From: Cyclobacterium sp.
GTDB taxonomy: Bacteria; Bacteroidota; Bacteroidia; Cytophagales; Cyclobacteriaceae
NCBI RefSeq assembly: GCF_014762705.1
Contig: NZ_JABURL010000050.1
Coordinates: forward strand, 1-64,000
Direction of reading: 5' to 3'
DNA: 64,000 nt
Positions 8,476 through 31,462 of the stretch are shown piece after piece; position 1 is the first letter of the stretch, and every line of letters begins with the position of its first letter. The position numbers and the translations under genes are program-made. The notes under the pieces are model-generated. The model was not told the DNA's origin, searched no databases, and was given only the letters and a program-made list of their open reading frames with translations.

Positions 8476-9564
8476 TTATTCTTTTGGTGGTTTTCTGTGC
8501 CAATAGGAGGCCAGCACGGAACCTGTAATGTTCATTAAAGGTCCAAAAACAGCTGGGGCCAGGCCTACGGTGGCGATTTTACCCATTTCCTTGGCCAGGC
8601 CTGAGGCCAATCCCCCATTTTGCATGCCTACTTCCAGGGCCACGGTACGGGCATCTTTTTCGGAAAGTCCAAGCCATTTGCTGACCCAGAAACCCAGGTT
8701 ATAGCCCATGACATTATGGATGAAAACCAGGATGATCAACAAACCTCCGATATCCAGTAAACTGTCCCGGCCTGCAGCTGTAATGATGACGATAATGACG
8801 CCGATTCCGATCATAGACACCAAAGGCATGGCATCATCCAGCCACTTGGCTTTACCGCTTAAAAATCGATTGAATAACAATCCGGCCCCAATGGGGATAA
8901 TGACCATTTTGATAATGCTCCACATCATGTCCAGCACGTCTATTTCCACAAATTCTCCCGCCAGAAGTTTCATCAGAAGCGGTGTCATAAATGGAGCAAG
9001 CAGGGTAGAGATTGCGGTAATGGTAATGGAAAGTGCCAGGTTGGCTTTTGCCAGGTAGCTCATCACGTTTGAAGCCAGCCCACTTGGTGAACAGCCAATC
9101 AGTACCAATCCGGCAGCTATTTCTGCAGGGAAATTGCTCAGGCTGGCAAGGATAAAACCCAAAACGGGCATGATGGTAAACTGAGATAGCAAACCGATAA
9201 ATACTCCTCTGGGCATTTTGGCCACTCCGGCAAAGTCCTTTATGGACATGGAAGTACCCATCCCAAACATTATGATCTGAATCAGTGGAGTTATCAGATT
9301 GCTATAGGAATAGCCCTTGTATTCCACAAAATATTCCGGGTAGTACATGGCTGCTGTCACCCCGGCAAAAATCATGGTAGTGTAGGTAAAACCTTTAAGC
9401 TTTTGAAAACCACGGAAACCAATACCCAGGAATACAAAAAACAAGATAAGAATCGGACCAGCAGCAGCAATCATTCCTGAAATGATCATAATGAAAGCAA
9501 GGAGCAGGCACAATAGTCCTGCTCCAATGATGGTTTTGAAAAGTTTTTCTTTTTTCAAGGTCAA
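8476..9564 (-). CDS. Bile acid:sodium symporter (BASS) family transporter
   Basis: Inner-membrane sodium-coupled transporter of the BASS family, 362 aa, with about ten hydrophobic helices. Family features include the GCSPSGLASNVMSYLAKANLALSI region (crossover helix with the small-residue motif) and the C-terminal EVGMQNGGLASGLA segment, which matches the second crossover helix. It lies 44 bp downstream of an exported RidA-like gene on the same strand, so the two are probably co-transcribed. Substrates of bacterial BASS proteins include bile acids, pantoate and other organic anions; here an organic acid made by the neighbouring periplasmic enzymes is possible but unproven. Confidence 0.9.
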   Translation of the reverse strand: MTLKKEKLFKTIIGAGLLCLLLAFIMIISGMIAAAGPILILFFVFLGIGFRGFQKLKGFTYTTMIFAGVTAAMYYPEYFVEYKGYSYSNLITPLIQIIMFGMGTSMSIKDFAGVAKMPRGVFIGLLSQFTIMPVLGFILASLSNFPAEIAAGLVLIGCSPSGLASNVMSYLAKANLALSITITAISTLLAPFMTPLLMKLLAGEFVEIDVLDMMWSIIKMVIIPIGAGLLFNRFLSGKAKWLDDAMPLVSMIGIGVIIVIITAAGRDSLLDIGGLLIILVFIHNVMGYNLGFWVSKWLGLSEKDARTVALEVGMQNGGLASGLAKEMGKIATVGLAPAVFGPLMNITGSVLASYWHRKPPKE

Positions 9565-9608
9565 ATGGGTTTAAAGGGTCGGGATTTAAAAGCGGAATAA
9601 AATGGCGT

Positions 9609-10070
9609 TTATATATAGGCTATGCAGTCCATTTCCACCAGAGAATCACCTGGTACACCCCCATAGGTAGCTACAGTGGTACGAACGGGTGGTTTGCTTC
9701 CAAATCTTCCCCTAAATACCTCATTCATGCCCTTATAATCGCTTAAATCGTGCAGGTAAACATTAACTTTCAGTACTTTCTCCATGGAACTACCTGCCTT
9801 GACCAGCTCTTTCTCCAGCTCCTTGAGCACATGGTCGGTGTGGGCTTTGATGTCCCCTTCAAAATGAGCACCTTTTCCTGCAATGTATACGGTATTTCCC
9901 AACTTCGTTGCCCCGGAAAACAGAGGCACATCCTGCTCCTCCTGAATATTAAAAGCTTCCTTTTCAGGTGCCCCATCAGTACTGGCATGGGCTACCGATC
10001 CAACTCCCGCTATTCCTGCAAGGCTGGCAAATAATTTTTTGATGGTACTTCTTCTTTTCATCTTTTCCAT
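9609..10070 (-). CDS. Exported RidA-family protein with Tat-like signal
   Basis: RidA (YjgF/YER057c/UK114) proteins hydrolyse reactive enamine/imine intermediates released by PLP enzymes. This 153-aa protein has an N-terminal export signal with twin arginines (KRRSTIKK, then a hydrophobic stretch ending near AHA), which is unusual because RidA is normally cytosolic. The catalytic Arg is kept in PPVRTTV and the following conserved acidic residue in LVEMD. I chose the start at 10070 (alternative 10061) because the open frame further upstream would put about 31 non-signal-like residues before the twin-arginine motif. A second exported RidA lies at 19469-19999. It precedes the symporter gene in one unit. 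Confidence 0.82.
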   Translation of the reverse strand: MEKMKRRSTIKKLFASLAGIAGVGSVAHASTDGAPEKEAFNIQEEQDVPLFSGATKLGNTVYIAGKGAHFEGDIKAHTDHVLKELEKELVKAGSSMEKVLKVNVYLHDLSDYKGMNEVFRGRFGSKPPVRTTVATYGGVPGDSLVEMDCIAYI

Positions 10071-10336
10071 TATTGTAGGTGTCGATTTATGGTAAGCATT
10101 AAAACCATTGAATATATGGGAATAAATTTTTTTCTCCAAATACTTCCGGTACAATGCCCCCAAGTCTTGTCCAAACGGAGAATCTATAGCTTGGAATTTA
10201 TGGTCTGACTCGGACCAATGAAATTTTTGGATATCAAAAAATTTTTAATTCTTATTTTTGTGTAAATTCACTCTATGCCAGAAGGCGTATTGCTGCTATT
10301 TTTGGTTAAATTTGATATGATGAATTTTGTTTATTA

Positions 10337-11281
10337 ATGCCATTCAATATGTTACTTACGAAAGAAAAACCCTGGACTGCACTACTTTTATTTTTGGTGT
10401 TGGGTGCTTGTGCCGGGAAAAACGAAAAAGCCAATTCCGTAGATATGAAGGACCAGGAAGAATTTTATACAAGTGAGCCGTTTACCAGGAATAGTGAATT
10501 TACTACCGGCATTGAAGGACCGGCGGTGGATAAAGAAGGAAATGTTTATGTGGTAAATTTTGGTGAGGCAGGTACTATTGGTAAGGTTACGCCGGAGGGT
10601 GAAGCCAGCCTGTTTGTTAACCTGCCGGAGGGAAGCACAGGAAACGGGATTCGTTTCAACAGCAAGGGAGAGATGCTAATTGCAGATTATACCGGTCACA
10701 ATGTATTAAAAGTAGACATGGCATCCCGGGAGGTTTCCGTATACGCCCACCATGATGAACTGAACCAGCCAAATGACCTGGCCATAATGGATAATGATAT
10801 CTTATTTGCCAGTGATCCCAACTGGGCCGAAAGTACAGGACAGATTTGGAGGGTAGGCCTGGATGGTCAGTTTGTACTTTTGGAAGCTGATATGGGTACC
10901 ACGAATGGCATTGAAGTTAGTCCCGATAACAGCACCCTGTATGTTAATGAATCAGTACAGCGGAAGGTCTGGGCTTACGACCTCGATGAAAAGGGGGATA
11001 TTTCCAATAAACGACTGATTCATTCTTTTGATGATTTTGGAATGGATGGCATGCGTGTAGATGTGCAAGGTAACCTGTTCATCACAAGGCATGGAAAGGG
11101 TACTATAGTGAAATTGTCCCCTGATGGGGAATTGTTGAAAGAATTTGCCGTATCCGGGAAAAAACCTTCCAACATTGCCTTCGGAGGGGCAGATGGAAAA
11201 ACAGCTTATATCACCCTCCAGGATAATGGCAACATAGACCGTTTTAGATCAGAAGAAGCAGGAAGAGCTTTTGATAAATAA
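10337..11281 (+). CDS. SMP-30/gluconolactonase-like beta-propeller lipoprotein
   Basis: Member of the SMP-30/gluconolactonase/LRE group, six-bladed propeller hydrolases that use a divalent metal to open sugar lactones. The 314-aa protein has a lipobox LGAC (Cys25), so it is membrane anchored and outside the cytoplasm. Family features include EGPAVDKEGNVYVVNF, the NGIRFNSKGEMLIADY blade, the LNQPNDLAIM segment and TNGIEVSPDNSTLYVNES. It is divergent from the RidA/symporter unit. A TATTTTTG -7-like box lies at 10253-10260 with a loosely spaced TTTG at 10226. A lactonase would fit after a sugar-oxidising dehydrogenase such as the one at 20813-22573; this link is inference. Confidence 0.85.
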   Translation: MPFNMLLTKEKPWTALLLFLVLGACAGKNEKANSVDMKDQEEFYTSEPFTRNSEFTTGIEGPAVDKEGNVYVVNFGEAGTIGKVTPEGEASLFVNLPEGSTGNGIRFNSKGEMLIADYTGHNVLKVDMASREVSVYAHHDELNQPNDLAIMDNDILFASDPNWAESTGQIWRVGLDGQFVLLEADMGTTNGIEVSPDNSTLYVNESVQRKVWAYDLDEKGDISNKRLIHSFDDFGMDGMRVDVQGNLFITRHGKGTIVKLSPDGELLKEFAVSGKKPSNIAFGGADGKTAYITLQDNGNIDRFRSEEAGRAFDK

Positions 11282-11319
11282 GTTGGGAATAGTGCCCTCA
11301 TTCATTTTTTACTGAAATC

Positions 11320-13611
11320 ATGGTTAATCTAAAAAAAGGAGACAGGCATTGGTCCAAAGTATTAAAACTTAACGGAGTAGGGGCATGGGAAATAGATCCT
11401 GCCAATCAGTCCTTTAATTGCTGTGCCATTGGCAGGGAAATCCTTCAAATTTCTCAGGTTGCACCGGTATCAATATCCTCCTTAAAGGATAAATTCAAAC
11501 CCGATTTTTCTACTATGCTCACACATGCGCTTGGGAATTTCCTGAATGCCGGTCAGGCTTTTCTTGAGGTGCTGGAACTCCTATCGGGTTCCCGGGTTAT
11601 AGTCAGGGGCAGGCTTGTACAGGATGGTGATGCTATGCGCTATTGTGGTTCAATAGAATCGCTTGATGTTTCGGGCCTGACCCAACAGCCGGAGCTTTTT
11701 TCTGATAGAAGTGACCTCTACAAGATTCTGTTTCAAGACCATCCCATGCCCATGTTCATCTGGGAATTTGGAAGCCTCAATATTATCGATGTCAACCGGC
11801 AGGCCTTGTTGAAATATGGATACAGTAGGGAAGAATTTTTAAGCTTAAATATCAGGGATATCAGGCCTGTAGAAGACATTCCGCTGATTGAGAAGTTCAC
11901 CAAAGGTGGGGATATTTATGGTAATATTCACCAAAAAGTCTGGCGGCATTTAAACAAAGCGGGTGAATTGATGCTGGTGGAGATTACAGGGCACCTGGTA
12001 GAAGTAGCAGGAAGAAGTTGTTCTATGGTTTTGATCAATGACATTACCAATAGAGTAGAGGCAGAGGAGCAGCTTCTGGAAAGCCTTAAGGATTTGTCTG
12101 ATTATCGTTTTGCTTTGGATGAGTCTTGTTTGGTGATGATCCTGGATAGGGAAAGGAAGGTAGAATATGTCAACCTGAAATTTCAGGAAATTTCAGGTTT
12201 CGATAAATCCGCCCTGGACCAGCATTCACTCAAGGTGCTTTATGATGAAAGTGAGGAGCACCTGATCCAGGATTGCTGGGATGCGGTTTTTTCCGGAAAC
12301 ATCTGGAGTGGAGAACTTAAGGGTAAGACAAAATACGGCGGGATATTCTGGGTAGACACAGTAATGATCCCTTTTAAAGACAACCAAGACTTTGCCTATC
12401 AGTACATATGGGTAGGCTATGATATCACCGAGAAAAAGCTTGGAGATGAAGCATTGATAAAGGAGCGTTCTTTGTTGCGGGCCATTATAGACAATTTACC
12501 TATTCAGATATATGTAAAGGATACCGAAGGAAGGTATATTATCAACAACAGGTTTCAGTATGAAAACCTTTTAGGGAAGACAAGCGAGGAAGAGACCCTG
12601 GGTAAAACGGTTTACGATTATTTCCCCGAGGAAATTGCCTCGGGGATGGATGCTTATGACAGGCAGATTCTAAGTGATGGTGAGCCGATATTGAATGTGG
12701 AGGAATATTACCATGATCGCAATGGTAGACAGGTTTGGTTGTTGACCAATAAGGTACCTTTGAAGGACAGTTATGGAAAAGTGGTAGGCCTTGTTGGCAT
12801 GTCCAGGGACGTGACCGATACGAAACAGAAAGAAGAAAATCTGAAAAGCCTCAATGGTGCCCTTCAGGATAAGGCTTTGGAGCTGGAGCGTTCCAATCAG
12901 GAGCTGGAGCAGTTTGCATATATTGCTTCTCATGATTTGCAGGAACCCTTGCGGATGATCACCGGATTTTTGGGATTATTAGAGAGAAAATACCAGGCCT
13001 TACTGGATGAAAAAGGAAAACAGTATATTCATTTTGCGGTGGATGGAGCCAGTCGCATGAAAAACATTATCATGGACCTTCTGACCTATTCCAGGGCAGG
13101 AAGAATAGAAGAAAAGGTAAAAGAAGTGGCCATTGATGAACTGGTTTCCAATATTCTCCAGCTTCATAAGGAATTGATCCAGCAAAAAAATGCCCGCATC
13201 AGTCTCGGAAAATTACCGAGGTTGATAATTCCCGTTGCCCCTATCCATCAGGTATTTCAGAATCTGATCAATAATGCCTTGAAATATCAAAATGAAGGTC
13301 ACATACCTGAGGTTGATATTCAAGCGGAAGAAAATGAAGATTATTGGATGTTTATTGTAAAGGATAATGGTATAGGTATTCCGGAAGGCCTGCATGACCA
13401 GGTATTTATATTGTTTTCCAGATTACATGAGAAACAAAAATTTACCGGCTCGGGGATCGGGTTGGCAATGTGTAAAAAAATAATTGAAAACCTTGGTGGT
13501 ACCATAGGGTTTAGGTCTGCTGAGGGAATAGGAAGTACCTTTTTCTTTACCTTTCCTAAAACAATAAGTGATAAAAGGCTTACAGGTTTGACCAATGATT
13601 TTGAGAACTAG
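11320..13611 (+). CDS. Multi-PAS sensor histidine kinase (complete HK)
   Basis: Soluble sensor kinase of 763 aa with no clear membrane helix. Several PAS modules run from about residue 20 to 510; the clearest are at 135-245 (FIWEFGSLNIIDVNRQALLKYG region), 255-370 and 385-510 (IQIYVKDTEGRYIINN). A short coiled coil leads to the DHp domain with phospho-acceptor His538 (ASHDLQEPLRMI). The ATPase domain is complete: N-box (NLINNALKY), G1 (DNGIGIP) and G2 (GSGIGLAMCKKI). This is the only full kinase in the 11-17 kb signalling block. The downstream REC-PAS-DHp protein shares a very similar PAS module (NIRDIRP versus NLRDIRP), suggesting duplication. A 12-bp palindrome overlaps its stop codon. Confidence 0.93.
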   Translation: MVNLKKGDRHWSKVLKLNGVGAWEIDPANQSFNCCAIGREILQISQVAPVSISSLKDKFKPDFSTMLTHALGNFLNAGQAFLEVLELLSGSRVIVRGRLVQDGDAMRYCGSIESLDVSGLTQQPELFSDRSDLYKILFQDHPMPMFIWEFGSLNIIDVNRQALLKYGYSREEFLSLNIRDIRPVEDIPLIEKFTKGGDIYGNIHQKVWRHLNKAGELMLVEITGHLVEVAGRSCSMVLINDITNRVEAEEQLLESLKDLSDYRFALDESCLVMILDRERKVEYVNLKFQEISGFDKSALDQHSLKVLYDESEEHLIQDCWDAVFSGNIWSGELKGKTKYGGIFWVDTVMIPFKDNQDFAYQYIWVGYDITEKKLGDEALIKERSLLRAIIDNLPIQIYVKDTEGRYIINNRFQYENLLGKTSEEETLGKTVYDYFPEEIASGMDAYDRQILSDGEPILNVEEYYHDRNGRQVWLLTNKVPLKDSYGKVVGLVGMSRDVTDTKQKEENLKSLNGALQDKALELERSNQELEQFAYIASHDLQEPLRMITGFLGLLERKYQALLDEKGKQYIHFAVDGASRMKNIIMDLLTYSRAGRIEEKVKEVAIDELVSNILQLHKELIQQKNARISLGKLPRLIIPVAPIHQVFQNLINNALKYQNEGHIPEVDIQAEENEDYWMFIVKDNGIGIPEGLHDQVFILFSRLHEKQKFTGSGIGLAMCKKIIENLGGTIGFRSAEGIGSTFFFTFPKTISDKRLTGLTNDFEN

Positions 13612-16876: not shown

Positions 16877-16906
16877 AAAATGCCCTCCCTGAAGGGAAGG
16901 CATTTT
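16877..16906 (-). terminator. Terminator of the five-gene exported-enzyme operon
   Basis: Stem 16877-16889 / 16894-16906 with a TGAA loop (as read on plus) and a single C/A mismatch. On the minus strand it is followed by a T-rich run. It lies about 25 bp after the stop of the amidohydrolase gene and marks the end of the minus-strand operon. Confidence 0.7.
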
Positions 16907-16930: not shown

Positions 16931-18184
16931 TTATTGAATGATTTCCTGTGCGGCCATTCCATTGAAGTCGTATACGATATTGCCATCTTTGATGGTCATT
17001 TCACATTCCAATCTTTGGTTTGTCTCTACTTTTTGACCTGTGCGGTCCCAGACCCCAAAGTCTCCCTCTCTCACCCTTAATATGGCCAGATCGGCTATGG
17101 CTCCTTCAGACAAGTGGCCCAACTCGGTCCTTTGGATGACTTGTGCCGGTTCCCAGGTGCTGGCACTGATCACTTTGGGAAGTTCCATATCAAGTGCCAT
17201 AAAGGTGGTCATGACATTCAGCATATTCTTCATGGCTGCATTCATACTTCCTGCATGCAGGTCCGTACTGATGGTATTGGGATAGAGGCCTGCAGCTATG
17301 GCCGGAATGGCCTGACGGAGTTCAAAACTGGCACCTCCATAGCCCACGTCAAAAATAATCCCCCTTTTTTGTGCTTCCAGTACAAATGGTTGGAATTGTC
17401 TTGTTTCCCTGTCCACTATGGTTTCTCGGGCACCGTTAAGTTCTGCATAAGTATGGGTATATATGTCCCCGGGCCTCAACCTTTCAAAGAAGAGCTCGCG
17501 GATGGAAAGAGGTTCAAACTGTGTAGAACCTCCAAAGTCCACAATCACAGGCATTTTGGCGATGTTTCCCGCTTCCACCGCACGATCAATAGGAATCCAA
17601 TCCCTACTGCCATAATGGGCAACCTTAAAGCCCACAACATGCTGGCGGTTTTGCTGGGCCACCATGGCGCTCAATTTGGCGTCCATGTCCCCGGTATTTT
17701 GCTCCCAGGCACCTCCTCGCATTCCTTCTCCCACTATATTCATAAAGGCCAGTACACGGGTCTTGCTTGCATCAATGATATTCTTCTTGAAAGTATCAAA
17801 GTTTTTCCAGCCGGGACCTCCGCAGTCCACAATGGTAGTCACTCCAACCCTGAACGTAAACCCATCCGGTGGAACGGCTATCAAACCATCACTTAAATAA
17901 TGGTTTGGCTGTGTTCCGTGAAAAACATGACCATGGATGTCTATCAGTCCTGGGGTTACCAAAAGTCCCTGAGCCGGAATCGTTTTCCTGGCATCAGAAG
18001 CGTTAATGGAACTGGCTACCCGGGCAATTTTGCCATCAGTTATGGCAATGTCCATTACCCCGTCAATATTGTTTTTTGGATCAATCAACCTGCCCCCTTT
18101 GATGAGCAGATCATAGGTTTGGGCAGGTAACAGTCCACTGGAAAAAACCAGCAGGAATAAGAGAAAAAGATTTTTGATTTTCAT
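16931..18184 (-). CDS. Exported amidohydrolase/deacetylase-family metallohydrolase
   Basis: 417-aa TIM-barrel amidohydrolase with a Sec signal peptide (MKIKNLFLLF...LPAQ), so it is periplasmic. Metal-site candidates are His84/His86 (DIHGH), Lys187 (GFKVAH), His244 (IYTHTY) and Asp308 (STDLH). Where EF_0837-type deacetylases have His in a VHIG segment, this protein has Asp216 (VIVDFGG), apparently a trait of this subgroup. The family is thought to remove acyl groups from amino compounds and is often encoded with a SelA-like PLP enzyme. That is the case here: the PLP gene lies 3 bp upstream. It is the last gene of the operon, before a terminator. Confidence 0.87.
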   Translation of the reverse strand: MKIKNLFLLFLLVFSSGLLPAQTYDLLIKGGRLIDPKNNIDGVMDIAITDGKIARVASSINASDARKTIPAQGLLVTPGLIDIHGHVFHGTQPNHYLSDGLIAVPPDGFTFRVGVTTIVDCGGPGWKNFDTFKKNIIDASKTRVLAFMNIVGEGMRGGAWEQNTGDMDAKLSAMVAQQNRQHVVGFKVAHYGSRDWIPIDRAVEAGNIAKMPVIVDFGGSTQFEPLSIRELFFERLRPGDIYTHTYAELNGARETIVDRETRQFQPFVLEAQKRGIIFDVGYGGASFELRQAIPAIAAGLYPNTISTDLHAGSMNAAMKNMLNVMTTFMALDMELPKVISASTWEPAQVIQRTELGHLSEGAIADLAILRVREGDFGVWDRTGQKVETNQRLECEMTIKDGNIVYDFNGMAAQEIIQ

Positions 18185-18187
18185 GGT

Positions 18188-19411
18188 TTAAACTTTAGCA
18201 ATGTTTAATTCTTCAGCGATTCTTTTGGCGACAATTTTTTCTTCTTTGGGCCTGAGCATAAAAACGGTCATGCTTATTGCATGGTCACCACCACTGATTA
18301 CTTCAATGGAGGGATTGCCCTGCCTGAGTTTTTCCTGTAATTGAGCCCGGCTGAGCTGGATTTTATCCGGATCCCAGCCAATTTTGAGATAAGGGGTGTG
18401 GTTGGCAATTTCGGGAACCGATACTTCCGTAGTCACGCTATCGATTTTTTCCACCACGCTGGCCACATAAGCCACCTTATCTTCCCATTCCTGCCATTCC
18501 TTATCGTGGTCTTTTTTAATGTATTCATCCAAAGCCACATACATGCCCAGGATTTCTTCTTTATTCACCTTCATGCCCCTGCCAATGGTGCCTCCTCTGG
18601 GGGGGGCGCTCAACCTCGCTGCTTCGATAAGATCCTTCCTCCCCATAAGAATTCCGGCACTTTGCGGACCTCTCATGGCTTTGCCTCCTGAAATGCATAC
18701 CAGATCAAAACCCATGTCATTGTACTTCCAAAGGTTCTCCACCGGAGGTACATCTGCTGCCATATCGATCATGGTGGGAATCCCGTGTTTTTTGCCTAAA
18801 GCCACCCACTCTTCATGCTTGATCTTTCCATCAGGTGCCTGATAATTTAAAAACCACATCATTGCCGTTTTTCCATTAATGGCGCGATCTACATCAGCAG
18901 CTGTCTCTACTTCTACCACGCTGACCCCGGTATTGGTGATGGCGTGTACGTATCCTACATTGTGTGATTTTTGTACGATGACTTCTGACTTCATCCCTTC
19001 AAGGTTAGGCAGTTGCCTGATTTTATCCCGGTCTGTTCCTGTCAGCACACCCGCAGTCCCCAAGACCATGGCAGACCAACATCCGGCAGTAACCGTTGCG
19101 GCTTCGGCATGACAAAGGGCTGCAATTTTCTCTCCCACTTTGTCCTGTACCTCGTCCAGCATGATATAGTGACGGGAAGAGAAATTAATGGTTTCCATCA
19201 CTTCTTTTGGCATCAGGGAAGCAGTCATGGCCGTGTAAGTTCCAGCTGCATTGATGAAGCTCCTCAATCCCAATTCCTTAACGATATCTCTTTTTGGGCT
19301 TGTTTCAGCATTTGCAGCCATGGTTCCTGATAAAGGAATGCCTCTGCCTATCACCCCACCTACCAATGGTAAGGCACCCAGTCTTTTTAGTAATTTTCTT
19401 CTGCTTATCAT
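18188..19411 (-). CDS. Tat-exported SelA-like PLP-dependent enzyme (ammonia-lyase type)
   Basis: 407-aa fold-type I PLP enzyme related to SelA and to D-glucosaminate-6-phosphate ammonia-lyase (DgaE). PLP Lys is Lys244 (SGGKAMRGPQSAG) and the Asp contacting the pyridine is Asp217 (MIDMAAD). The start at 19411 gives a textbook Tat signal (SRRKLLKRLG followed by a hydrophobic stretch). The longer open frame from 19450 adds only unlikely residues. Export by Tat would let the enzyme fold with PLP before translocation. It sits between an exported RidA and an exported amidohydrolase. The probable reaction is beta-elimination of ammonia from an amino acid or amino sugar acid. A cysteine-sulfur or SelA role is unlikely given the neighbours. 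Confidence 0.87.
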   Translation of the reverse strand: MISRRKLLKRLGALPLVGGVIGRGIPLSGTMAANAETSPKRDIVKELGLRSFINAAGTYTAMTASLMPKEVMETINFSSRHYIMLDEVQDKVGEKIAALCHAEAATVTAGCWSAMVLGTAGVLTGTDRDKIRQLPNLEGMKSEVIVQKSHNVGYVHAITNTGVSVVEVETAADVDRAINGKTAMMWFLNYQAPDGKIKHEEWVALGKKHGIPTMIDMAADVPPVENLWKYNDMGFDLVCISGGKAMRGPQSAGILMGRKDLIEAARLSAPPRGGTIGRGMKVNKEEILGMYVALDEYIKKDHDKEWQEWEDKVAYVASVVEKIDSVTTEVSVPEIANHTPYLKIGWDPDKIQLSRAQLQEKLRQGNPSIEVISGGDHAISMTVFMLRPKEEKIVAKRIAEELNIAKV

Positions 19412-19468
19412 AATTATATTTGTTTTAGCATGTCCCGCTCTGGCTGCCAATTATCGGTGTTCCTGAGC

Positions 19469-19999
19469 TCAGTCTTCTATTTCCACTATCATTTCTATTT
19501 CTATGGCAATATTGTTGGGTAAAGAACCCATACCTACAGCGGAACGGGCATGCTTGCCTTTTTCTCCAAAAACCTCAACCATAAAGTCCGAAAAACCATT
19601 CATGACACGTGGTTGTTGGGTAAAATCCGGGCTGGCATTGACCATTCCCAATACTTTAACGATTCTTTTTACCTTGTTCAAATTTCCGATTTCAGCTTTC
19701 AATGAGGAAAGTAAGGCAATTCCGGTAAGCCTGGCAGCCTCTTGTCCTTCAGTTACCGTAAGTTCAGTGCCCAACTTCCCCTGAACACTGGTTCCGTCTT
19801 CCCGTGCAGGACCATGCCCGGAAAGGAACACCAGGTTTCCCGTTCTTACCGCCCTGACAAAATTGGCAGTAGGAGGAGCTGGTGTTTTTAAAGTGATTCC
19901 CATGGATTTTAATTTTTCCTCCGGATCCTGTTGGGCATGGCCCACAATAGATATGGAAAGAAAACCGATTACCAGTAAAATTTGAAGTGGTTTAAGCAT
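19469..19999 (-). CDS. Exported RidA-family protein (second copy)
   Basis: 176-aa RidA-superfamily protein with a Sec signal peptide (MLKPLQILLV...GHAQ). The core is complete: LVFLSGHGP, the KVKRIVKVLGMVN strand, catalytic Arg in KHARSAVG and IAIEIE at the end. It belongs to a different branch from the copy at 9609-10070. Its gene lies 57 bp upstream of the SelA-like PLP gene. This suits removal of the enamine/imine formed by that enzyme, in the same compartment. Confidence 0.88.
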   Translation of the reverse strand: MLKPLQILLVIGFLSISIVGHAQQDPEEKLKSMGITLKTPAPPTANFVRAVRTGNLVFLSGHGPAREDGTSVQGKLGTELTVTEGQEAARLTGIALLSSLKAEIGNLNKVKRIVKVLGMVNASPDFTQQPRVMNGFSDFMVEVFGEKGKHARSAVGMGSLPNNIAIEIEMIVEIED

Positions 20000-20023
20000 A
20001 TTTATTAAGTTTGAATTAGACTA

Positions 20024-20773
20024 TTATTGAAAGGTGATATTACCAAAATACCTGGGTAGGTGAAAGTCTGGTCTGTCATTAATTACTTCGTTCCAGGTAA
20101 AATAGTGAGGATTGCTGGTTTTACTGCCCGTCTTATAAAAGTTGGCTTTCCAGGTAACCCCCGGAGCAGGCGTTGATATGTTGCGATGCTCCTTCAAAAT
20201 ACTAACAGGCATTTTGAATTCTATGTACCAGGTCGTATCCTCCCGGATTTCCGGATCAACCTTGTCCGGCATGCTATGTGCGATCTCTATTTGTCTGATA
20301 TCTTCCGGGTCCAGTACCTTATACTCTTTTCTGGGACTGGTGACATAGTGAAGGAGAGGAACCCCGGAGCAGTTGATTTCCAGATTAAAATATTCCAGTG
20401 GCGCAGCGACATCGGGAGAAAAGAAAAATTCCACACAGGAATCTGTCGAAACCGGGCCGTTTATTTCCTGAACCAGACATTGTACATAGCGATCTTGCAC
20501 CTTAAAAATGCCATAAATATTGTCTTTGTCATACCTCAGTTTTACTTCGGTTTTTGGAGAAAATGAAGGTGTTTCTCCCATATGAAAGGCAATCTCAATG
20601 GCAGGAACTTCCTTCCACTCTTTCTTTTCCCAATTTCCATCGATAAGGATGGGTTTTGAAACTGGATGTACCATGTATGTGGATGGGTCTGCTGCAGAAT
20701 GGCTCATGGTATTTGTAAAATGGCTATTAAAAAAGCCAAGTGTTAGCATTAAGATGAATAGTCCAACTTTCAT
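20024..20773 (-). CDS. Exported carbohydrate-binding family 9-like protein
   Basis: 249-aa protein with a Sec-type N-terminus (MKVGLFILMLTLGFF) and a single CBM9-like beta-sandwich. Typical family segments are ILIDGNWEKKEW, VKLRYDKDNIYGIFKVQD, SCVEFFFSP and YFNLEINCSG. In CBM9 domains such aromatic- and acid-lined surfaces bind sugar ends, but many stand-alone homologues have no proven ligand. It is the second gene of the five-gene operon, 39 bp after the dehydrogenase/cytochrome gene and 24 bp before the RidA gene. Confidence 0.82.
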   Translation of the reverse strand: MKVGLFILMLTLGFFNSHFTNTMSHSAADPSTYMVHPVSKPILIDGNWEKKEWKEVPAIEIAFHMGETPSFSPKTEVKLRYDKDNIYGIFKVQDRYVQCLVQEINGPVSTDSCVEFFFSPDVAAPLEYFNLEINCSGVPLLHYVTSPRKEYKVLDPEDIRQIEIAHSMPDKVDPEIREDTTWYIEFKMPVSILKEHRNISTPAPGVTWKANFYKTGSKTSNPHYFTWNEVINDRPDFHLPRYFGNITFQ

Positions 20774-20812
20774 TGATGTTTGAATTTAGGGAATAAAGGC
20801 AGCGAACGCAAG

Positions 20813-22573
20813 TTATTGCAATTCATTCCTGACTTTAGCTACCTCGGTTGCTGAAATACTGGAAGAATTATTGCCAAAGTTTTTCCTTATATAGGTCAAA
20901 ACTCCAGCCACTTCCACATCACTTAAAAAGGAGTGTGCAGGCATGATACCATTATACTCCACCTCATTGACCTCAATTTGCCCTTCCATTCCATTCAATA
21001 CCAGGCTGATCAATCTTTTGTTATTTCGGGTTACCCATTCTGTTTCGGACAGGGGAGGGAAGCGGGTGCCATCACCTTTACCATTGGCTTGATGACAAGT
21101 AGCACAATATATATTGTAGGTTTGTGCACCAGTTTCAAGGAGTCCCTTCTCCAGGTTATCGGCTTCCTCATCTGGGTTTTTGATGTTTGTTCTGGTATTT
21201 TTTCGTTCTTCCAATTCAGCGAGGGCTTCCTCTCCAAAATCTTCCTTTTCACCAGTATACATCACCCTCCAAATCTTCCCCTGTACGCTTTCTGTGATAT
21301 AAAGTGAACCATCAGGGCCCATGGAGATGCCCATAGGTCTTGCTGCTGCATCCCCGGTATTTACTATGGTATCCAACTGTGCAAAGCCATCTGCAAAGAC
21401 CTCCCAGGGTCCGGAAGGTTTGCCGTTTTCAAAAGGGACAAAGCCGACAAAATAGCCCCCTTGTGGATAGGGACCTCTAATGGTACTGCCATGGAAAGCC
21501 ACAAAGGCTCCGTTTTTATACCTTTCCGGAAACTGCTCACCTTGGTAGAAATATAGATCATTTGGGGCAAAATGGCCTGGAAAACCCAAAAGGGGAGATT
21601 CCACATTTTCAGCACCTGTGGCTAAAGTTTTATCGCCGCCATATTCCGGATTAAGTAATTTCTTCTCCTGTAAGTGGTCGTAATAATAATAGGGCCATCC
21701 TCCATCTGTGCCATCTTCTACTTTAAAAAATTCTTCAGAAGGAAGAAGCGCTGACTCCCATCTTGAAAATAAATCCGGCCAGGTACGGTGAAGGTTATCC
21801 CTGCCATGTTGCACCACATAGAGGCTGTTTTCGTCTTTATTCCAGTCCATGGCCACTACACTGCGGATGCCGGTAGCATACCTGTACCCATCCTGCTGGG
21901 TTTGGTTGAGCTTGTTGGCATCAAACCGCCAAATTCCCCCATGCCATTCCAGTTCGGGGCAAGGGTCCATTCCCGGTGCACCTGGTCTTCTGTTGAACTC
22001 CTGACATACATCACCGGGAGAGCCAAAAGGCACGTACATGTTTCCTTCCTGATCAAAAGCCAGGGGTTTGGCTATGTGTTCATATCCATGAACTGCATTC
22101 TTATAATCATCTTTCATGATTAATTCTACTTCTCCTTCAGGTACCAATTTTTCCGGATCAATCTTTGTCCGGTAAACCTCCCCAGCCGTACTGAAATAAA
22201 GGTAGCCATTATAAATTTCCATTCCAGTACCGTAATTGCCTGTGTCGGAGTATGCTCCAAAAGTTTCCACCCTATCTGCTTTCCCGTCTCCGTTGCTGTC
22301 TCTTAAGGCAACAATTCCTTGTCCTTCCTCATTAGGAACTCTCAGTTTTACATAAATGTCCCCATTTTCGTTTACGGTCAGGTGCCTTGCCCGACCAATG
22401 CTGTCTACGACCACAATTGCTTCAAAACCATCTGGAAGAAACAGCCCCCCATTATCCAGATCAGCAGGAGGAAGATTGTTGTCGGACTGACAAGATGTAA
22501 AAAAAATCAAAATCAATGAAGTGAGTAGCCCAGTAGTCAAGTAATGGCGGGTGCTCCAAATTCTTTGTAACAT
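20813..22573 (-). CDS. PQQ-type sugar dehydrogenase/cytochrome c lipoprotein
   Basis: 586-aa lipoprotein (lipobox FTSC, Cys28). Residues about 40-440 form a beta-propeller of the glucose/sorbosone dehydrogenase or NHL type (ATGIRSVVAMDW, YVVQHGRDNL, RPMGISMGPDGSLYI). A C-terminal monohaem cytochrome c domain has CATCH at 490-494 and a probable axial Met544 (NGIMPAH). Electrons from substrate oxidation would pass to the attached haem and then to the respiratory chain. The propeller may bind PQQ, but the cofactor cannot be proven from sequence. It is the first gene of the operon ending with the deacetylase; a 15-bp palindrome lies about 105 bp upstream. Confidence 0.85.
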   Translation of the reverse strand: MLQRIWSTRHYLTTGLLTSLILIFFTSCQSDNNLPPADLDNGGLFLPDGFEAIVVVDSIGRARHLTVNENGDIYVKLRVPNEEGQGIVALRDSNGDGKADRVETFGAYSDTGNYGTGMEIYNGYLYFSTAGEVYRTKIDPEKLVPEGEVELIMKDDYKNAVHGYEHIAKPLAFDQEGNMYVPFGSPGDVCQEFNRRPGAPGMDPCPELEWHGGIWRFDANKLNQTQQDGYRYATGIRSVVAMDWNKDENSLYVVQHGRDNLHRTWPDLFSRWESALLPSEEFFKVEDGTDGGWPYYYYDHLQEKKLLNPEYGGDKTLATGAENVESPLLGFPGHFAPNDLYFYQGEQFPERYKNGAFVAFHGSTIRGPYPQGGYFVGFVPFENGKPSGPWEVFADGFAQLDTIVNTGDAAARPMGISMGPDGSLYITESVQGKIWRVMYTGEKEDFGEEALAELEERKNTRTNIKNPDEEADNLEKGLLETGAQTYNIYCATCHQANGKGDGTRFPPLSETEWVTRNNKRLISLVLNGMEGQIEVNEVEYNGIMPAHSFLSDVEVAGVLTYIRKNFGNNSSSISATEVAKVRNELQ

Positions 22574-22989: not shown

Positions 22990-23877
22990 TCAGGCTACAT
23001 GGGTGAGAGACACCAAATAATCCTTAATATCTTTTAAGTATTGCATGACGTGAACATTGGCAGGAATATTCAGGTCCTGCCCGATAATTTGATATCCTGA
23101 AATTAAAATTTCAGAAGCTGCAAACCTTTCGCTCAGTGAATTCAGGTATTTTTGTACTTCTTCTCCTGATGGAGAGGTGGTAATGACAGTGACTAAAAAA
23201 TCGGGCTTGTGCGCATTATACACGCTATTCAGGTCTTCGTCAGGTGTGTTTTGCCCTAAATAGATGACTTTATGACCACTTGATTTGAGTAAGTAACAAG
23301 AAAAAAGCAAGGAGATTTCATGCAACTCACCTTCTGGCAAGAATAAGAGGAATTTCTTCCCTCCTCCAGTATACATTTGTCCGTCAATAGCTACTATTAA
23401 TTTTTGCCTGACCAGATTGCTAATGAAATGTTCCTGACCAGGGTGAATGCTACCGGTCTGCCACAGAATCCCGATTTTGGATAAAAACGGATAAATGATG
23501 TGAAGCATGGTTAGTTCAAATCCTATTTTAAGGATATTGGTTGAAATTATCTTTTCAAAACGTTCTTCATCTAATTCTACCATGGTGATGATCAGGGAAT
23601 GGATCTGATCGTCATAGGCAAATGATCTTTCCGTTAATTTAAGAATCTCTGATTTCATGTTTTCCAGAGTCATCCTGGCAATCTTACTGATTTTATATCC
23701 ATTGTCATTCAACAAGGCTACGTTAAGAATCAACTTCAAGTCTTCATCATCATAGAAGCGGATATTGGTATCTGTCCTTTTGGGTTTTAGCAAATTGTAC
23801 CTTTGTTCCCAAACCCTAAGTGTATGGGCTTTAATGCCTGAAAGCTGCTCTAAATCCTTTATTGAATAATTACTCAT
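22990..23877 (-). CDS. MerR-family B12-binding regulator, CarH/LitR-like photoreceptor
   Basis: 295-aa regulator. N-terminal MerR helix-turn-helix domain at 1-70 (YSIKDLEQLSGIKAHTLRVWEQRYNLL). A four-helix cobalamin-capping domain follows with the CarH signature W139-x9-E149-H150. The C-terminal Rossmann B12-binding domain has EGELHE (His186, possible lower axial ligand) and YLGQNTPDEDL. In CarH, the tetramer bound to adenosylcobalamin represses carotenoid genes in the dark and falls apart in light. I chose the start at 23877 because it begins exactly at the MerR domain. Its start overlaps the end of the crtZ-like gene by 8 bp, so it is co-transcribed with carotenoid genes. Confidence 0.88.
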   Translation of the reverse strand: MSNYSIKDLEQLSGIKAHTLRVWEQRYNLLKPKRTDTNIRFYDDEDLKLILNVALLNDNGYKISKIARMTLENMKSEILKLTERSFAYDDQIHSLIITMVELDEERFEKIISTNILKIGFELTMLHIIYPFLSKIGILWQTGSIHPGQEHFISNLVRQKLIVAIDGQMYTGGGKKFLLFLPEGELHEISLLFSCYLLKSSGHKVIYLGQNTPDEDLNSVYNAHKPDFLVTVITTSPSGEEVQKYLNSLSERFAASEILISGYQIIGQDLNIPANVHVMQYLKDIKDYLVSLTHVA

Positions 23878-24319
23878 CTCTATTTTTTTTAAAGTACTTA
23901 AAAGGAACAAAAAACAAACCGAAAGATACAGATCCATCCCTGTACCTGCTGGCATGGTGGGCCTGATGGGCTTTAAAGATGGCGGCAAGGAATCTGTTTT
24001 TCGGTTTTCCAAAAAACTTCAACCGGCGGTGAATAAGTACATCATGTAAAAAGAAATAACTCATTCCGTAAATACTTATTCCCATGCCCATCCAAAATCT
24101 GTAATCATAATTTTCGAGCCCTAAGAAAATTAATGATATGGCAATACCTCCAAAAAGTAATGAAAACAAATCATTCAGCTCAAAATAGCCTTTGGAATGT
24201 TGGTGGTGGGTTTTATGAATTTTCCATAAAATGCCATGCATGAGGTACTTATGAATAAACCATCCAGATACCTCCATGGCCAAAAATCCTACCATTATAT
24301 ATAATAAAGCATAAATCAT
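23870..24319 (-). CDS. crtZ: CrtZ-type beta-carotene hydroxylase
   Basis: 149-aa membrane di-iron hydroxylase of the fatty-acid hydroxylase superfamily, adding hydroxyl groups to the C3 of beta-ionone rings. The histidine clusters are present in order: HKYLMHG, HKTHHQH, HDVLIH and HQAHHAS. Hydrophobic helices lie between them, and length and layout match bacterial CrtZ. It lies 36 bp downstream of the CruF-like gene and overlaps the MerR gene by 8 bp. The pairing suggests synthesis of a 3-hydroxylated, 1'-hydroxylated carotenoid such as flexixanthin or a myxol type; the phytoene and desaturase genes are not in this window. Confidence 0.87.
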   Translation of the reverse strand: MIYALLYIMVGFLAMEVSGWFIHKYLMHGILWKIHKTHHQHSKGYFELNDLFSLLFGGIAISLIFLGLENYDYRFWMGMGISIYGMSYFFLHDVLIHRRLKFFGKPKNRFLAAIFKAHQAHHASRYRDGSVSFGLFFVPFKYFKKNRDE

Positions 24320-24355
24320 CTTTAGGGTAACTTTAGAAGAAATAAAATGTTTTAC

Positions 24356-25021
24356 TTATTCAAGGATAATTGCCAAAATGGAAAAAAACAAGATCAGGTT
24401 GATGAAAATGAACAAGTTAAGCTGATTTCTTTTGTCAAATGTTGTCTTCCTGTATGTCAGTTGAATGATAAAAGCAATTAGAAACCAACCTGCAAAATTC
24501 GATAAGGGAATGTGATCGAGTTCCCATTGCCAAAAATCAAGTTTGACGGCTACCGGTTCGAGAACCACATCCATCAATACCATGAGAATGGAACTACAAA
24601 TAGCAGCTAAAATATCGTTTTTAATGCGTTTGTTTAGGATACCTCCCGTGAGATAGACCAATAAAAACCAATTTATCCCAATGATCAATGGGACTCCAAG
24701 CACTTGAAAACCAAGCACCTGTCCGTAGGCGTATTCACCAAATATCAACCCCGTTTTTACACCAATGATTTCCGATACCATCCCTACGGTAAAAGCAAAA
24801 ATACCAAATAACCAAAACCCCAAATTGAAATCTTTATGAAAAGAAATCAATATTCCGGTCACAACAAGTAGATGAACAGGGGTTAAGGTTTGAAATATGG
24901 GCCTGCTTATTGAGAAATAAAGCCCCAGCAAGCCAACCAAATGGAGGATTAATAGGGCTGTTTTAGCTGTAACCAGCTTATTTCTTTTTAAAAAAGACAG
25001 CATTTCTCTGAAACTCCTCAT
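24356..25021 (-). CDS. CruF-like carotenoid biosynthesis membrane protein (DUF422)
   Basis: 221-aa polytopic membrane protein with about seven hydrophobic helices. The motif region EIIGVKTGLIFGEYAYG and the later MDVVLEPVAVKLDFWQW match the carotenoid 1,2-hydratase CruF/DUF422 family, which adds water to the psi-end of the carotenoid chain. It starts the minus-strand operon with crtZ and the MerR photoreceptor gene. Assignment to the hydratase rather than a cyclase rests on this family pattern; the exact substrate is inferred. Confidence 0.8.
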   Translation of the reverse strand: MRSFREMLSFLKRNKLVTAKTALLILHLVGLLGLYFSISRPIFQTLTPVHLLVVTGILISFHKDFNLGFWLFGIFAFTVGMVSEIIGVKTGLIFGEYAYGQVLGFQVLGVPLIIGINWFLLVYLTGGILNKRIKNDILAAICSSILMVLMDVVLEPVAVKLDFWQWELDHIPLSNFAGWFLIAFIIQLTYRKTTFDKRNQLNLFIFINLILFFSILAIILE

Positions 25022-29798: not shown

Positions 29799-30011
29799 AA
29801 TCGACCTTCAAAATATTACAGTTATATAATCTGAATGATTATCCTATCAAAAAGCATTCCATCTAAACTTTTGTTTTGGTTTCAAATTTTTTTTTGATGT
29901 TCCTTATTTTGGGTAGCCTTTTTCCTGTTAAGATCAAATGTGTCGATTTGCCCGGCTTTATTCATTCTCTGCCTGAAAAAATTAATTTGTTTGCTTACAT
30001 TTGTCGCATCT

Positions 30012-30107
30012 GGTGATGGGGTTCCACCAAATTTCCTGATTTCCCCTTTCTTTTGGATAGGTTTTTCAGGTTTAAACCGCTGAATTTCTTCAGCTGATGA
30101 CTCCTGC
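30012..30107 (+). ncRNA. Fluoride riboswitch (crcB motif)
   Basis: The 5' part GGTGATGGGGTTCCACC (30012-30028) and the 3' part beginning AAACCGCTGA (30074) and ending in CAGCTGATGACTCCTGC (up to 30107) match the crcB consensus. P2 pairs GGTG with CACC. The 3' hairpin is GCTGAA-TTTC-TTCAGC (30079-30094). The pseudoknot pairs GGGGT (30018-30022) with ACTCC (30100-30104). Between P2 and the 3' hairpin lies an insertion of about 45 nt, longer than usual, which can form CCTGA (30035-30039) / TCAGG (30066-30070). It is followed by a terminator hairpin and then a CLC-F-type gene, the expected target. Confidence 0.88.
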
Positions 30108-30117
30108 TTCAACTTCT

Positions 30118-30166: not shown

Positions 30167-31462
30167 ATGTTGAAGAGGACCAGGATTTTATTGCCCCTTA
30201 GAAAATTTATATTTCAGGAGTTTGCACCCAACATTGCCTACACTTTTCGATGGCTGCTACTATCTATCGTAATTGGCTTACTGGCAGGTTCCGCTTCGGC
30301 AGTCTTTTTGATCAGCCTCAATTGGGCCACTCAATTTCGGGAAGCAAATATTTATGTCATTTTATTCCTTCCTTTGGGCGGATTTGTCATTGGCTGGGTA
30401 TACCACAGGTATGGCAATTCCGTAGTAAAGGGCAACAATCAATTACTGGAAGAGTTTTATAATCCTTTAAAAATCATACCATTAAGAATGGTTCCATTGG
30501 TGCTGTTCGGTACGGTCATGACCCATTTTTTTGGCGGATCAGCAGGGCGGGAGGGTACGGCCGTGCAGATGGGTGGAGCGATATCCGATCAATTTACAAA
30601 ATGGTTTAAGCTTCCCAATACCGATAGAAAAACGGTTATCACCATAGGAGTGGCAGCAGGTTTTGCATCTGTATTTGGCACACCGCTGGCAGGAGCGGTA
30701 TTTGCCCTGGAATGGCTGGTGATAGGCAGACTGCGGTACGAATCGATTTTGCCGGCGTTTCTTGCGGCCTTTATTGCGGATTATGCCTGTGCGGACCTTT
30801 GGGGGGTGGCTCATACCCATTATACCATTCCAATAGTGCCTGAATTAGACCTAATCCTGTTATTATGGATCATTCCAGCTGGAATTTGTTTTGGACTTGC
30901 AGGGAGGCTGTTTGCCTTTTCTACTCATTTTTGGGCTGGGTTTTTTTCCAGGAAAATCAAATATCCGCCGTTCAGACCAGTGGTGGGTGGTGTAATGATT
31001 GCCGCTTCTGTTTTTATAATGGGAGATACCAAATATATTGGTCTGGGTATTCCGACTATTGTGGATGCGTTTTCGGTAGATTTGCCTTGGTATGATTTTT
31101 TGATCAAAACGGCAAAGACCTCTCTTACCCTGGGGGCAGGATTTAAGGGAGGTGAGGTAACACCCTTATTTTATGTGGGAGCTACACTGGGGAATGCAAT
31201 GGCTGAATGGACCCCTTTACCGGTGGCTTTATTGGCTGGGATGGGCTTTGTCGGGGTTTTTTCTGGCGCTACAAATACGCCGATGGCCTGTACCTTTATG
31301 GGGATAGAGCTTTTTGGCTCAGCACCTGGAATGTACATAGGTCTCGCATGCGTATTGGCCTACCTTTTTAGCGGCCATTCCGGCATTTATGGGTCACAGG
31401 TAATTGGTTCGCCCAAGCATGTTAACCTGTTGAAAAAGAAGGGAAGGCGTATTGGTAAATGA
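30167..31462 (+). CDS. CLC-F-type fluoride/proton antiporter
   Basis: 431-aa CLC-family membrane protein with 10 or more hydrophobic helices. The motifs are those of the fluoride branch and not of chloride channels. GNN (89-91, KGNNQLLEE) replaces the usual GSGIP. GREGTAVQMGG has gating Glu129 and Thr instead of Pro. GGEVTP (328-333) replaces GGxFxP, bringing Glu330 and Thr332, residue types linked to fluoride export in CLC-F proteins. It would pump fluoride out of the cell in exchange for protons. A fluoride riboswitch and terminator in its leader support the assignment. No crcB/fluc gene is seen nearby. Confidence 0.9.
   Translation: MLKRTRILLPLRKFIFQEFAPNIAYTFRWLLLSIVIGLLAGSASAVFLISLNWATQFREANIYVILFLPLGGFVIGWVYHRYGNSVVKGNNQLLEEFYNPLKIIPLRMVPLVLFGTVMTHFFGGSAGREGTAVQMGGAISDQFTKWFKLPNTDRKTVITIGVAAGFASVFGTPLAGAVFALEWLVIGRLRYESILPAFLAAFIADYACADLWGVAHTHYTIPIVPELDLILLLWIIPAGICFGLAGRLFAFSTHFWAGFFSRKIKYPPFRPVVGGVMIAASVFIMGDTKYIGLGIPTIVDAFSVDLPWYDFLIKTAKTSLTLGAGFKGGEVTPLFYVGATLGNAMAEWTPLPVALLAGMGFVGVFSGATNTPMACTFMGIELFGSAPGMYIGLACVLAYLFSGHSGIYGSQVIGSPKHVNLLKKKGRRIGK

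Follow-up and report, generated by a model that had tools for sequence, protein, structure and literature searches.

The 64,000-nucleotide window analysed here (positions 1 to 64,000 of contig NZ_JABURL010000050.1 of a Cyclobacterium sp.) carries on its minus strand, at 16931-22573, five closely spaced genes that we interpret, with the reservations given below, as the core of an exported catabolic module. A first-pass annotation had marked these five genes as an operon with gaps of 3-57 bp, and the open reading frames (ORFs) do lie where it placed them, with gaps of 3, 57, 24 and 39 bp when the fourth gene starts at ATG 19411 (MISRRKLLK), a start we prefer over TTG 19450. In the direction of transcription the first gene (20813-22573) encodes a lipoprotein dehydrogenase/cytochrome c (GDHc) that joins a GSDH-type propeller, the fold of pyrroloquinoline quinone (PQQ) sugar dehydrogenases, to a C-terminal cytochrome c, with both GSDH and Cytochrom_C matching over gathering, and that is predicted to oxidise amino sugars at C1. 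It is followed by a CBM9_2 protein with a weak signal and a putative role in sugar binding (20024-20773; PF16011, 3e-35), by a RidA/YjgF protein (RID; 19469-19999) assigned by family match, with a Sec-type signal and predicted enamine/imine hydrolase activity, by a SelA-like fold-type I pyridoxal phosphate (PLP) enzyme (SELA; 18188-19411) with a signal for twin-arginine translocation (Tat), predicted to act as an ammonia-lyase on a 2-amino-aldonate, and by an NF006689/COG3964-type amidohydrolase (AMH; 16931-18184) with a Sec-type signal, predicted to be an N-deacetylase. The SELA of the window is 99% identical to its Cyclobacterium plantarum counterpart. Of the terminator claimed at 16877-16906, what we find 3' of the operon on the same strand is a hairpin with a T-rich tail at 16900-16884, a weak call from a consensus scan only, because that scan returned 19 sites of this kind in 10 kb where 9.6 would be expected.

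Three more genes of the window belong with these five. The first-pass annotation had suggested that a lactonase-like lipoprotein at 10337-11281 on the plus strand would fit the pathway, and this protein (SGL), which has an SMP-30/gluconolactonase-type propeller (PF08450, 1e-43) and is predicted to hydrolyse lactones, is indeed a recurrent gene of the module. Overlooked at that stage were two minus-strand genes of the same module: a transporter of the bile acid sodium symporter (BASS) family (SBF; 8476-9564; PF01758, 4e-43), predicted to import a keto-acid product, and a second exported RidA (RID2; 9609-10070), identified by family match, with a Tat-type signal MEKMKRRSTIKKLFASLAG when its start is placed at ATG 10070. 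Between them the window proteins match the RidA families PF14588 and PF01042 over gathering. Further away on the plus strand lie a SusC outer-membrane transporter (324-3392; TIGR04056), a possible entry route, and a gene (3403-5025) for a SusD-like lipoprotein, assigned from its position after SusC and with no NCBIfam match.

That all five products carry export signals had been claimed from the start, and by eye we find a lipobox in GDHc, Sec-type signals in AMH and RID and a Tat signal in SELA; the signal of the CBM9 protein is weaker. Across homologues a crude export scan flagged AMH in 56/58 cases, GDHc in 30/30, SGL in 13/13, RID in 23/24, RID2 in 14/15 and RraA, an exported PF03737 protein that recurs with the module in some relatives, in 5/5, but CBM9 in only 11/22. 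The same scan also flagged 86/139 unclassified neighbours, some of them surely genuine exported or membrane proteins, and the export case therefore rests on the Tat motif, which is present in 56/64 SELA-type genes versus 7/139 of those neighbours. Among SELA-family proteins with an intact start, 59 of 60 have a twin-arginine motif, typically MKRRDIIKGLSLLPLSGG. This count covers 61 sequences longer than 330 aa, less one (L027) that is cut by the end of its locus; 57 satisfy a rule that requires an uncharged stretch after RR, each start being reset to the Met that most closely precedes the first RR if there was one, and two were added by eye, L026 (an over-extended ORF with MRRRDLLKG inside) and L043 (RR, with no upstream Met found). 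The sole exception, L045, has RK in place of RR. When class-A SELA sequences are started at the Met before RR, R4 and R5 are invariant in 31/31 rows. TatC is encoded in the genome itself. A periplasmic PLP enzyme by itself has precedents, since PvdN and PtaA are described as Tat-exported PLP enzymes in the part of PMC6206403 drawn on here.

How widely the genes travel together was asked in two surveys. In the first, a collection with a single genome for each species was scanned with a pattern, which yielded 44 loci in 36 genomes; in the DNA stretches examined around SELA we find AMH in 32 genomes, RidA in 31, GDHc in 27, CBM9 in 22, SGL in 16, SBF in 10, SusC in 9 and RraA in 5. The RidA figure comes from best-match labels and perhaps takes in a small number of ordinary RidA genes, for example those on the minus strand in L021 and L032. 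Outside the nine Cyclobacterium genomes the partners remain (of 27 genomes: AMH 23, RidA 22, GDHc 18, CBM9 13, SGL 9, SBF 9, RraA 5). In 395 genomes drawn evenly over the phylum, our own included, SELA occurs in 8 and AMH in 12, namely all 8 of these and 4 genomes that belong to a single genus. For GDHc, the closest subfamily (E<1e-240) occurs in 9, the 8 SELA genomes and one other, and 52 genomes have a GDHc-like protein of any kind (E<=1e-60). In the seven SELA genomes besides our own, the stretch near SELA holds AMH in 7, RidA in 7, GDHc in 6, SGL in 6, SBF in 5 and RraA in 4. If genomes were independent, the 8/8 overlap of SELA with AMH would arise by chance with a probability of ~4e-14, a figure that overstates the case: the genomes are related, SELA loci supplied the profiles, the two surveys share at least one genome (G126, L022), and scoring was limited to 3-4 first-look candidates in each genome. 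Conservation is nonetheless well beyond chance. We conclude that the module is real and patchily distributed, an accessory trait. As for the four genomes with AMH and no SELA at the threshold used, one locus of the four was read (L092, G313, 8721-11323), and there AMH adjoins a seven-bladed-lactonase-like gene.

Gene order, whose conservation the first-pass annotation had proposed to survey, behaves differently from gene content. Membership is kept well beyond close relatives, but the exact order GDHc-CBM9-RID-SELA-AMH is kept in close relatives only; other families rearrange it, and we rejected a strict five-gene unit. Despite the variable order the genes mostly lie in co-directional runs, SBF stands near SGL and often near RraA in relatives, and 8/9 Cyclobacterium loci have an extra AMH inside the module. 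A second cluster in our own genome reads AMH-AMH-SELA(B)-RidA, and GDHc lies close to it. L063, apparently the same genome as L022 and so not independent of the 36, gives an example of a rearranged set: RidA-SELA-GDHc-RidA-SELB-AMH-AMH-GDHc-SELA-AMH-SGL-RraA-SBF-SnoaL-CBM9. Several SELA and AMH copies in one operon may serve different stereoisomers.

SELA scores 148.4 and 176.0 bits against the SelA and TIGR01437 models, below their cut-offs (385.3 for TIGR01437), and its predicted structure (mean pLDDT 77) is nearest among solved structures to Cap15 (8t7j, TMt 0.81-0.83) and to D-glucosaminate-6-phosphate ammonia-lyase (DGL; 7lc0, TMt 0.77). We mapped 46 aligned rows onto DGL, with residue roles as given in part of PMC9529869. 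The catalytic PLP lysine (Lys-217 in the numbering of that paper) is K in 46/46 rows and the carboxylate-binding position is R or K in 42/46. At the DGL His162/His163 pair no row of the 46 has His there or within two columns, in a loop whose alignment is uncertain, and the phosphate-binding arginines of DGL become Y, I and F in the SELA of the window, with Arg kept in 2, 3 and 0 of the 46 rows and never two together. Loss of these arginines suits a substrate that carries no phosphate, which is what one would expect outside the cytoplasm. SELA was accordingly rejected as a DGL proper, on residues and on model scores. In the portion of PMC9529869 that concerns it, the H163A mutant of DGL is still active but releases the enamine, and a similar enamine-release mechanism is possible for the SELA of the window. 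A co-exported RidA may then deal with the enamine made by an enzyme that lacks the His pair, which we find an attractive link and not a rule. Taken as the reason for having a RidA partner, His-pair loss failed: in the 10 regions examined of 241 plasmid records with a match, where the plasmid gene table is incomplete, RidA is annotated near 7/10 SelA-like genes, among them all 4 whose product keeps the pair.

The other enzymes are recognisable to differing degrees. AMH exceeds the cut-off of NF006689 (COG3964, EF_0837-like amidohydrolase/deacetylase; 425.1 bits versus 371) and falls below that of the narrower TIGR03583 EF_0837 model (197.4 versus 432.15). The canonical metal ligands of such enzymes include a strand-5 His; in AMH, residues H84, H86, H244 and D308 are invariant in 31/31 rows and K187 is found in at least 90%, but the strand-5 His is replaced by Asp or Glu. 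GDHc matches PF07995 (GSDH) at 33.7 bits over a threshold of 25 and has a cytochrome c with a CATCH motif; a search of solved structures with the propeller by itself gave weak repeats only, and the fold search was clearer, placing the model (mean pLDDT 80) nearest to fungal AA12 PQQ pyranose dehydrogenases (TMt 0.71-0.73), here with a haem domain attached. In the RidA proteins the Arg of an AR[SCA] or [VA]RTT motif, which is the deaminase residue, is present in 20/20 rows.

The likely product class comes from the genes at the end of the route. No RraA gene lies in the window, and a PF03737 search of the genome gave three matches, all on other contigs. Exported RraA proteins stand among Tat-type enolase-superfamily (MR_MLE) proteins in contig C108 of the same genome and in L028, and an RraA-family enzyme of Flavobacterium acts on 2-keto-3-deoxyhexarate according to the section of PMC8563752 used here; together these point to a 2-keto-3-deoxy acid as product. 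Two genes of the KDPG-aldolase family are also present in the genome. According to part of PMC10645422, pyruvate and chain-elongated 2-keto acids are cargoes of BASS transporters in plants. The route proposed in the first-pass annotation was also incomplete, as it lacked two recurrent partners, the exported RraA-family protein and the BASS-type transporter. As a separate observation, contig C108 (locus L088, 5489-11759) has two exported RraA-family and three MR_MLE proteins interspersed, two of the latter of Tat type, and upstream of them an HpcH-type aldolase and a GntP permease; this set is possibly a second exported pathway, for plain sugar acids.

Clusters outside Bacteroidota bear on the chemistry. 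On a plasmid of the acidobacterium Granulicella tundricola we find RraA, SELA, RidA, a second SELA-type enzyme, AMH, a seven-bladed lactonase and a BBE-domain oxidase, with Tat- or Sec-type signals by eye on all but the oxidase; the lactone step is filled here by a protein of another family, and the oxidation step probably so too. In the haloarchaea Halorussus and Haladaptatus a glucose 1-dehydrogenase, a PIG-L protein and a Rid protein lie around the SelA-like gene, partly on the other strand, and in Natrinema a D-aminoacylase-type protein, PIG-L, a sulfatase and a glycoside hydrolase family 20 (GH20) hexosaminidase lie nearby. There is no annotated RidA near the Natrinema gene, and no annotated AMH or RidA in the SelA-like stretches of Haloarcula and Mesorhizobium. 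In L032 a GH20 hexosaminidase ORF overlaps the SGL ORF by 13 bp. The chemistry first suggested for the operon, that is C1 oxidation, deacetylation and PLP-dependent deamination with RidA, draws support from the acidobacterial and haloarchaeal clusters, which apparently fill some of the same steps, lactone opening included, with unrelated enzymes.

With an oxidase, lactonase, deacylase, PLP lyase, RidA, RraA and importer found together, the simplest reading is that an N-acetylated amino sugar is broken down oxidatively outside the cytoplasm. From gene content, conserved linkage, the pattern of export signals, predicted folds and the catalytic-residue pattern we infer the substrate, the order of steps, the use of a quinone, the cargo of the transporter and the handover of the enamine. 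An N-acetylated amino sugar, or an oxidised form of it, would enter through SusC and its partner; GDHc would oxidise the anomeric carbon to give a lactone, passing electrons by its own haem c to the respiratory chain; and the SMP-30 lipoprotein would open the lactone to an N-acetyl-aminoaldonate, from which AMH would take off the acetyl group. SELA would fold around its PLP in the cytoplasm, leave by the Tat route and then eliminate the C3 hydroxyl to give an enamine/imine, from which hydrolysis by the exported RidA proteins would yield ammonia and a 2-keto-3-deoxy acid. This acid would in some relatives be split or further converted by the exported RraA-family enzyme, and the BASS-type symporter would import the keto acid. 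We put the chance that the module is such an exported route, from N-acetyl-amino sugar through lactone, N-acetylaldonate and amino-aldonate to an imported 2-keto-3-deoxy acid plus ammonia, at somewhat better than even. More tentative, and in our judgement rather short of an even chance, is the stronger proposal that a whole nutrient pathway runs outside the cytoplasm, in which the lyase hands its enamine to RidA, RraA splits the product, only a small keto acid is imported and electrons go straight to the respiratory chain. With a parallel exported sugar-acid route (Tat-type MR_MLE proteins and the same type of RraA), this would amount to a general strategy in Bacteroidota and Acidobacteriota. 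Any conserved exported version, with the lyase and RidA both beyond the inner membrane, would change where nitrogen leaves amino sugars, give a defined role to exported RidA proteins and haem-propeller lipoproteins, and might allow the use of substrates that inner-membrane transporters cannot take up.

Several observations weigh against the proposed amino-sugar route. Among the 36 genomes AMH is absent from the stretches around SELA in 4, RidA in 5 and GDHc in 9, RraA is present in only 5 and is missing from the module of the window, and GH20 lies in the surroundings of SELA in 1. Some SELA copies have none of the partners: L034 and L035 (beside a sulfatase and an uncharacterised protein), L031 (beside that protein alone) and L037 (alone). 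In AMH an Asp or Glu stands in 31/31 rows where the four nearest PDB relatives have the strand-5 His, itself a canonical metal ligand. No PqqE reaches its cut-off in the genome, so PQQ would need to be scavenged or another cofactor used. The BBE-type oxidase of Granulicella has no clear signal. RidA also adjoins alphaproteobacterial SelA-like enzymes that keep the His pair (4/4 in the plasmid regions), so that loss of the His cannot by itself explain its presence. In the part of PMC10645422 that deals with it, a bacterial BASS protein bound pantoate and not ketopantoate, and transport of keto acids can therefore not be taken for granted. Nor is the co-occurrence test fully independent, because SELA loci served to build the AMH and GDHc profiles and some of the sampled genomes overlap with those loci. 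As a side observation, a Tat-type protein of ~600 aa follows a second SELA copy in L031 (1625-3445) and recurs in L034 and L035, where a sulfatase-like gene precedes it; the L031 protein has no Pfam match.

A first alternative concerns the substrate class. The module might degrade N-acyl D-amino acids or beta-hydroxy amino acids, remnants of peptidoglycan or lipopeptides, with AMH deacylating, SELA deaminating and RidA finishing, while GDHc and SGL serve a separate sugar. Gamma-glutamyltransferase (GGT) and M81/MlrC genes, found in 3/36 genomes, suggest peptide-like substrates in some species and count against amino sugars there; M81 is also present in the stretch of the Mesorhizobium SelA-like gene, and alphaproteobacterial AMH-RidA-SelA-like sets come with ATP-binding cassette (ABC) importers, one annotated for peptide transport, and lack any annotated GDHc or lactonase over the stretches read. 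What these sets do have nearby is a FAD-binding oxidoreductase (Sagittula) and an iron-containing alcohol dehydrogenase (Martelella). Against amino-acid substrates stand the frequency of GDHc (27/36) and SGL (16/36), the probable sugar oxidase and the lactonase of Granulicella, the glucose 1-dehydrogenase of two haloarchaea, and the exported RraA, which would point to a 2-keto-3-deoxy acid and not to a simple keto acid; we regard this alternative as unlikely. In two of the GGT operons, which also hold M81/MlrC, a Tat-type protein of ~450 aa follows GGT (L036, 14328-15686; L033, 6612-7979), and the one in L036 has no Pfam match.

One might also ask whether SELA is an oxygen-dependent PLP enzyme like Cap15, in an exported set that oxidatively tailors or breaks down a secreted compound. 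Its model matches Cap15 as well as it does DGL, and PvdN is a Tat-exported PLP enzyme that uses oxygen, as reported in parts of PMC6206403 and PMC7497351. In profile score, however, SELA is closer to DGL (207 versus 175 bits), the co-encoded RidA, deacetylase and RraA would suit a lyase, and SusC and SBF would suit nutrient use, so that we think a Cap15-like role quite improbable. To the same low degree we credit the idea that AMH is an acetyl-ester hydrolase on O-acetylated hydroxy acids, in a set that handles acetylated sugar acids with no amide step. The solved structures closest to AMH are of COG3964 type (8je0, 2ogj, 2ics), and one COG3964 relative is reportedly an acetyl-ester hydrolase, which also tells against a deacetylase in the amino-sugar route. 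An ester substrate would leave the frequent pairing of AMH with a PLP enzyme and RidA unexplained, and other clusters put PIG-L or D-aminoacylase-type proteins beside SelA-like genes.

Elsewhere in the window, a MerR-like regulator and carotenoid-type genes (22990-25021, minus strand, by eye) lie upstream of the operon, and their homologues are again found upstream in the 16 loci of Cyclobacterium and near relatives (L003-L018); this stretch is probably a unit separate from the operon. A fluoride riboswitch (RF01734) at 30003-30113 on the plus strand lies upstream of an apparent ClC-type channel gene (30167-31462, by eye), an ordinary fluoride export arrangement.

Having set out the exported amino-sugar route, the next question is how it relates to systems already described. 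In the open-access literature searched we found no description of this exported module; most subscription papers and all bioRxiv preprints fall outside that scope. The nearest parallel is the ong cluster of Pseudoalteromonas for N-acetylglucosaminic acid (GlcNAc1A) from oxidative chitin breakdown, in which, as the relevant parts of PMC9537276 and PMC12017989 describe it, an N-acetyl-aminoaldonate is deacetylated and then deaminated by a PLP enzyme to 2-keto-3-deoxygluconate (KDG) and ammonia, with the RidA-family OngD co-encoded. The complete pathway is reported, in the part of PMC9537276 concerned, from Gammaproteobacteria and one Betaproteobacterium. As far as those descriptions go, GlcNAc1A is catabolised in the cytoplasm, whereas here both SELA and AMH have export signals; GlcNAc1A arises by cleavage by a lytic polysaccharide monooxygenase, whereas here there are a propeller dehydrogenase and a lactonase; and OngB is D-aminoacylase-like and OngC a fold-type III PLP enzyme, set against the COG3964-like AMH and the SelA-like, fold-type I SELA. 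With the dga system the module shares a related SelA-like lyase making a 2-keto-3-deoxyaldonate, its catalytic Lys kept, but the substrate of DGL is phosphorylated by the phosphotransferase system, and the His162/163 pair and phosphate arginines of DGL are not in the SELA of the window. PvdN and PtaA resemble SELA in being exported folded with cofactor by Tat and acting in the periplasm; they differ, as portrayed in part of PMC6206403, in that they tailor pyoverdine side chains and do not belong to a catabolic pathway with RidA, deacetylase and importer. Alphaproteobacterial clusters (L103-L105) have the same trio of deacetylase, RidA and SelA-like protein as annotated, but their SelA-like proteins have no N-terminal signal by eye, lie near ABC importer genes and keep the His pair of DGL. 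The module works like ong and dga but is a member of neither: the characterised routes for oxidised amino sugars are cytoplasmic, after uptake or phosphorylation, and what we describe here would be a conserved version with export signals on the lyase and on RidA.

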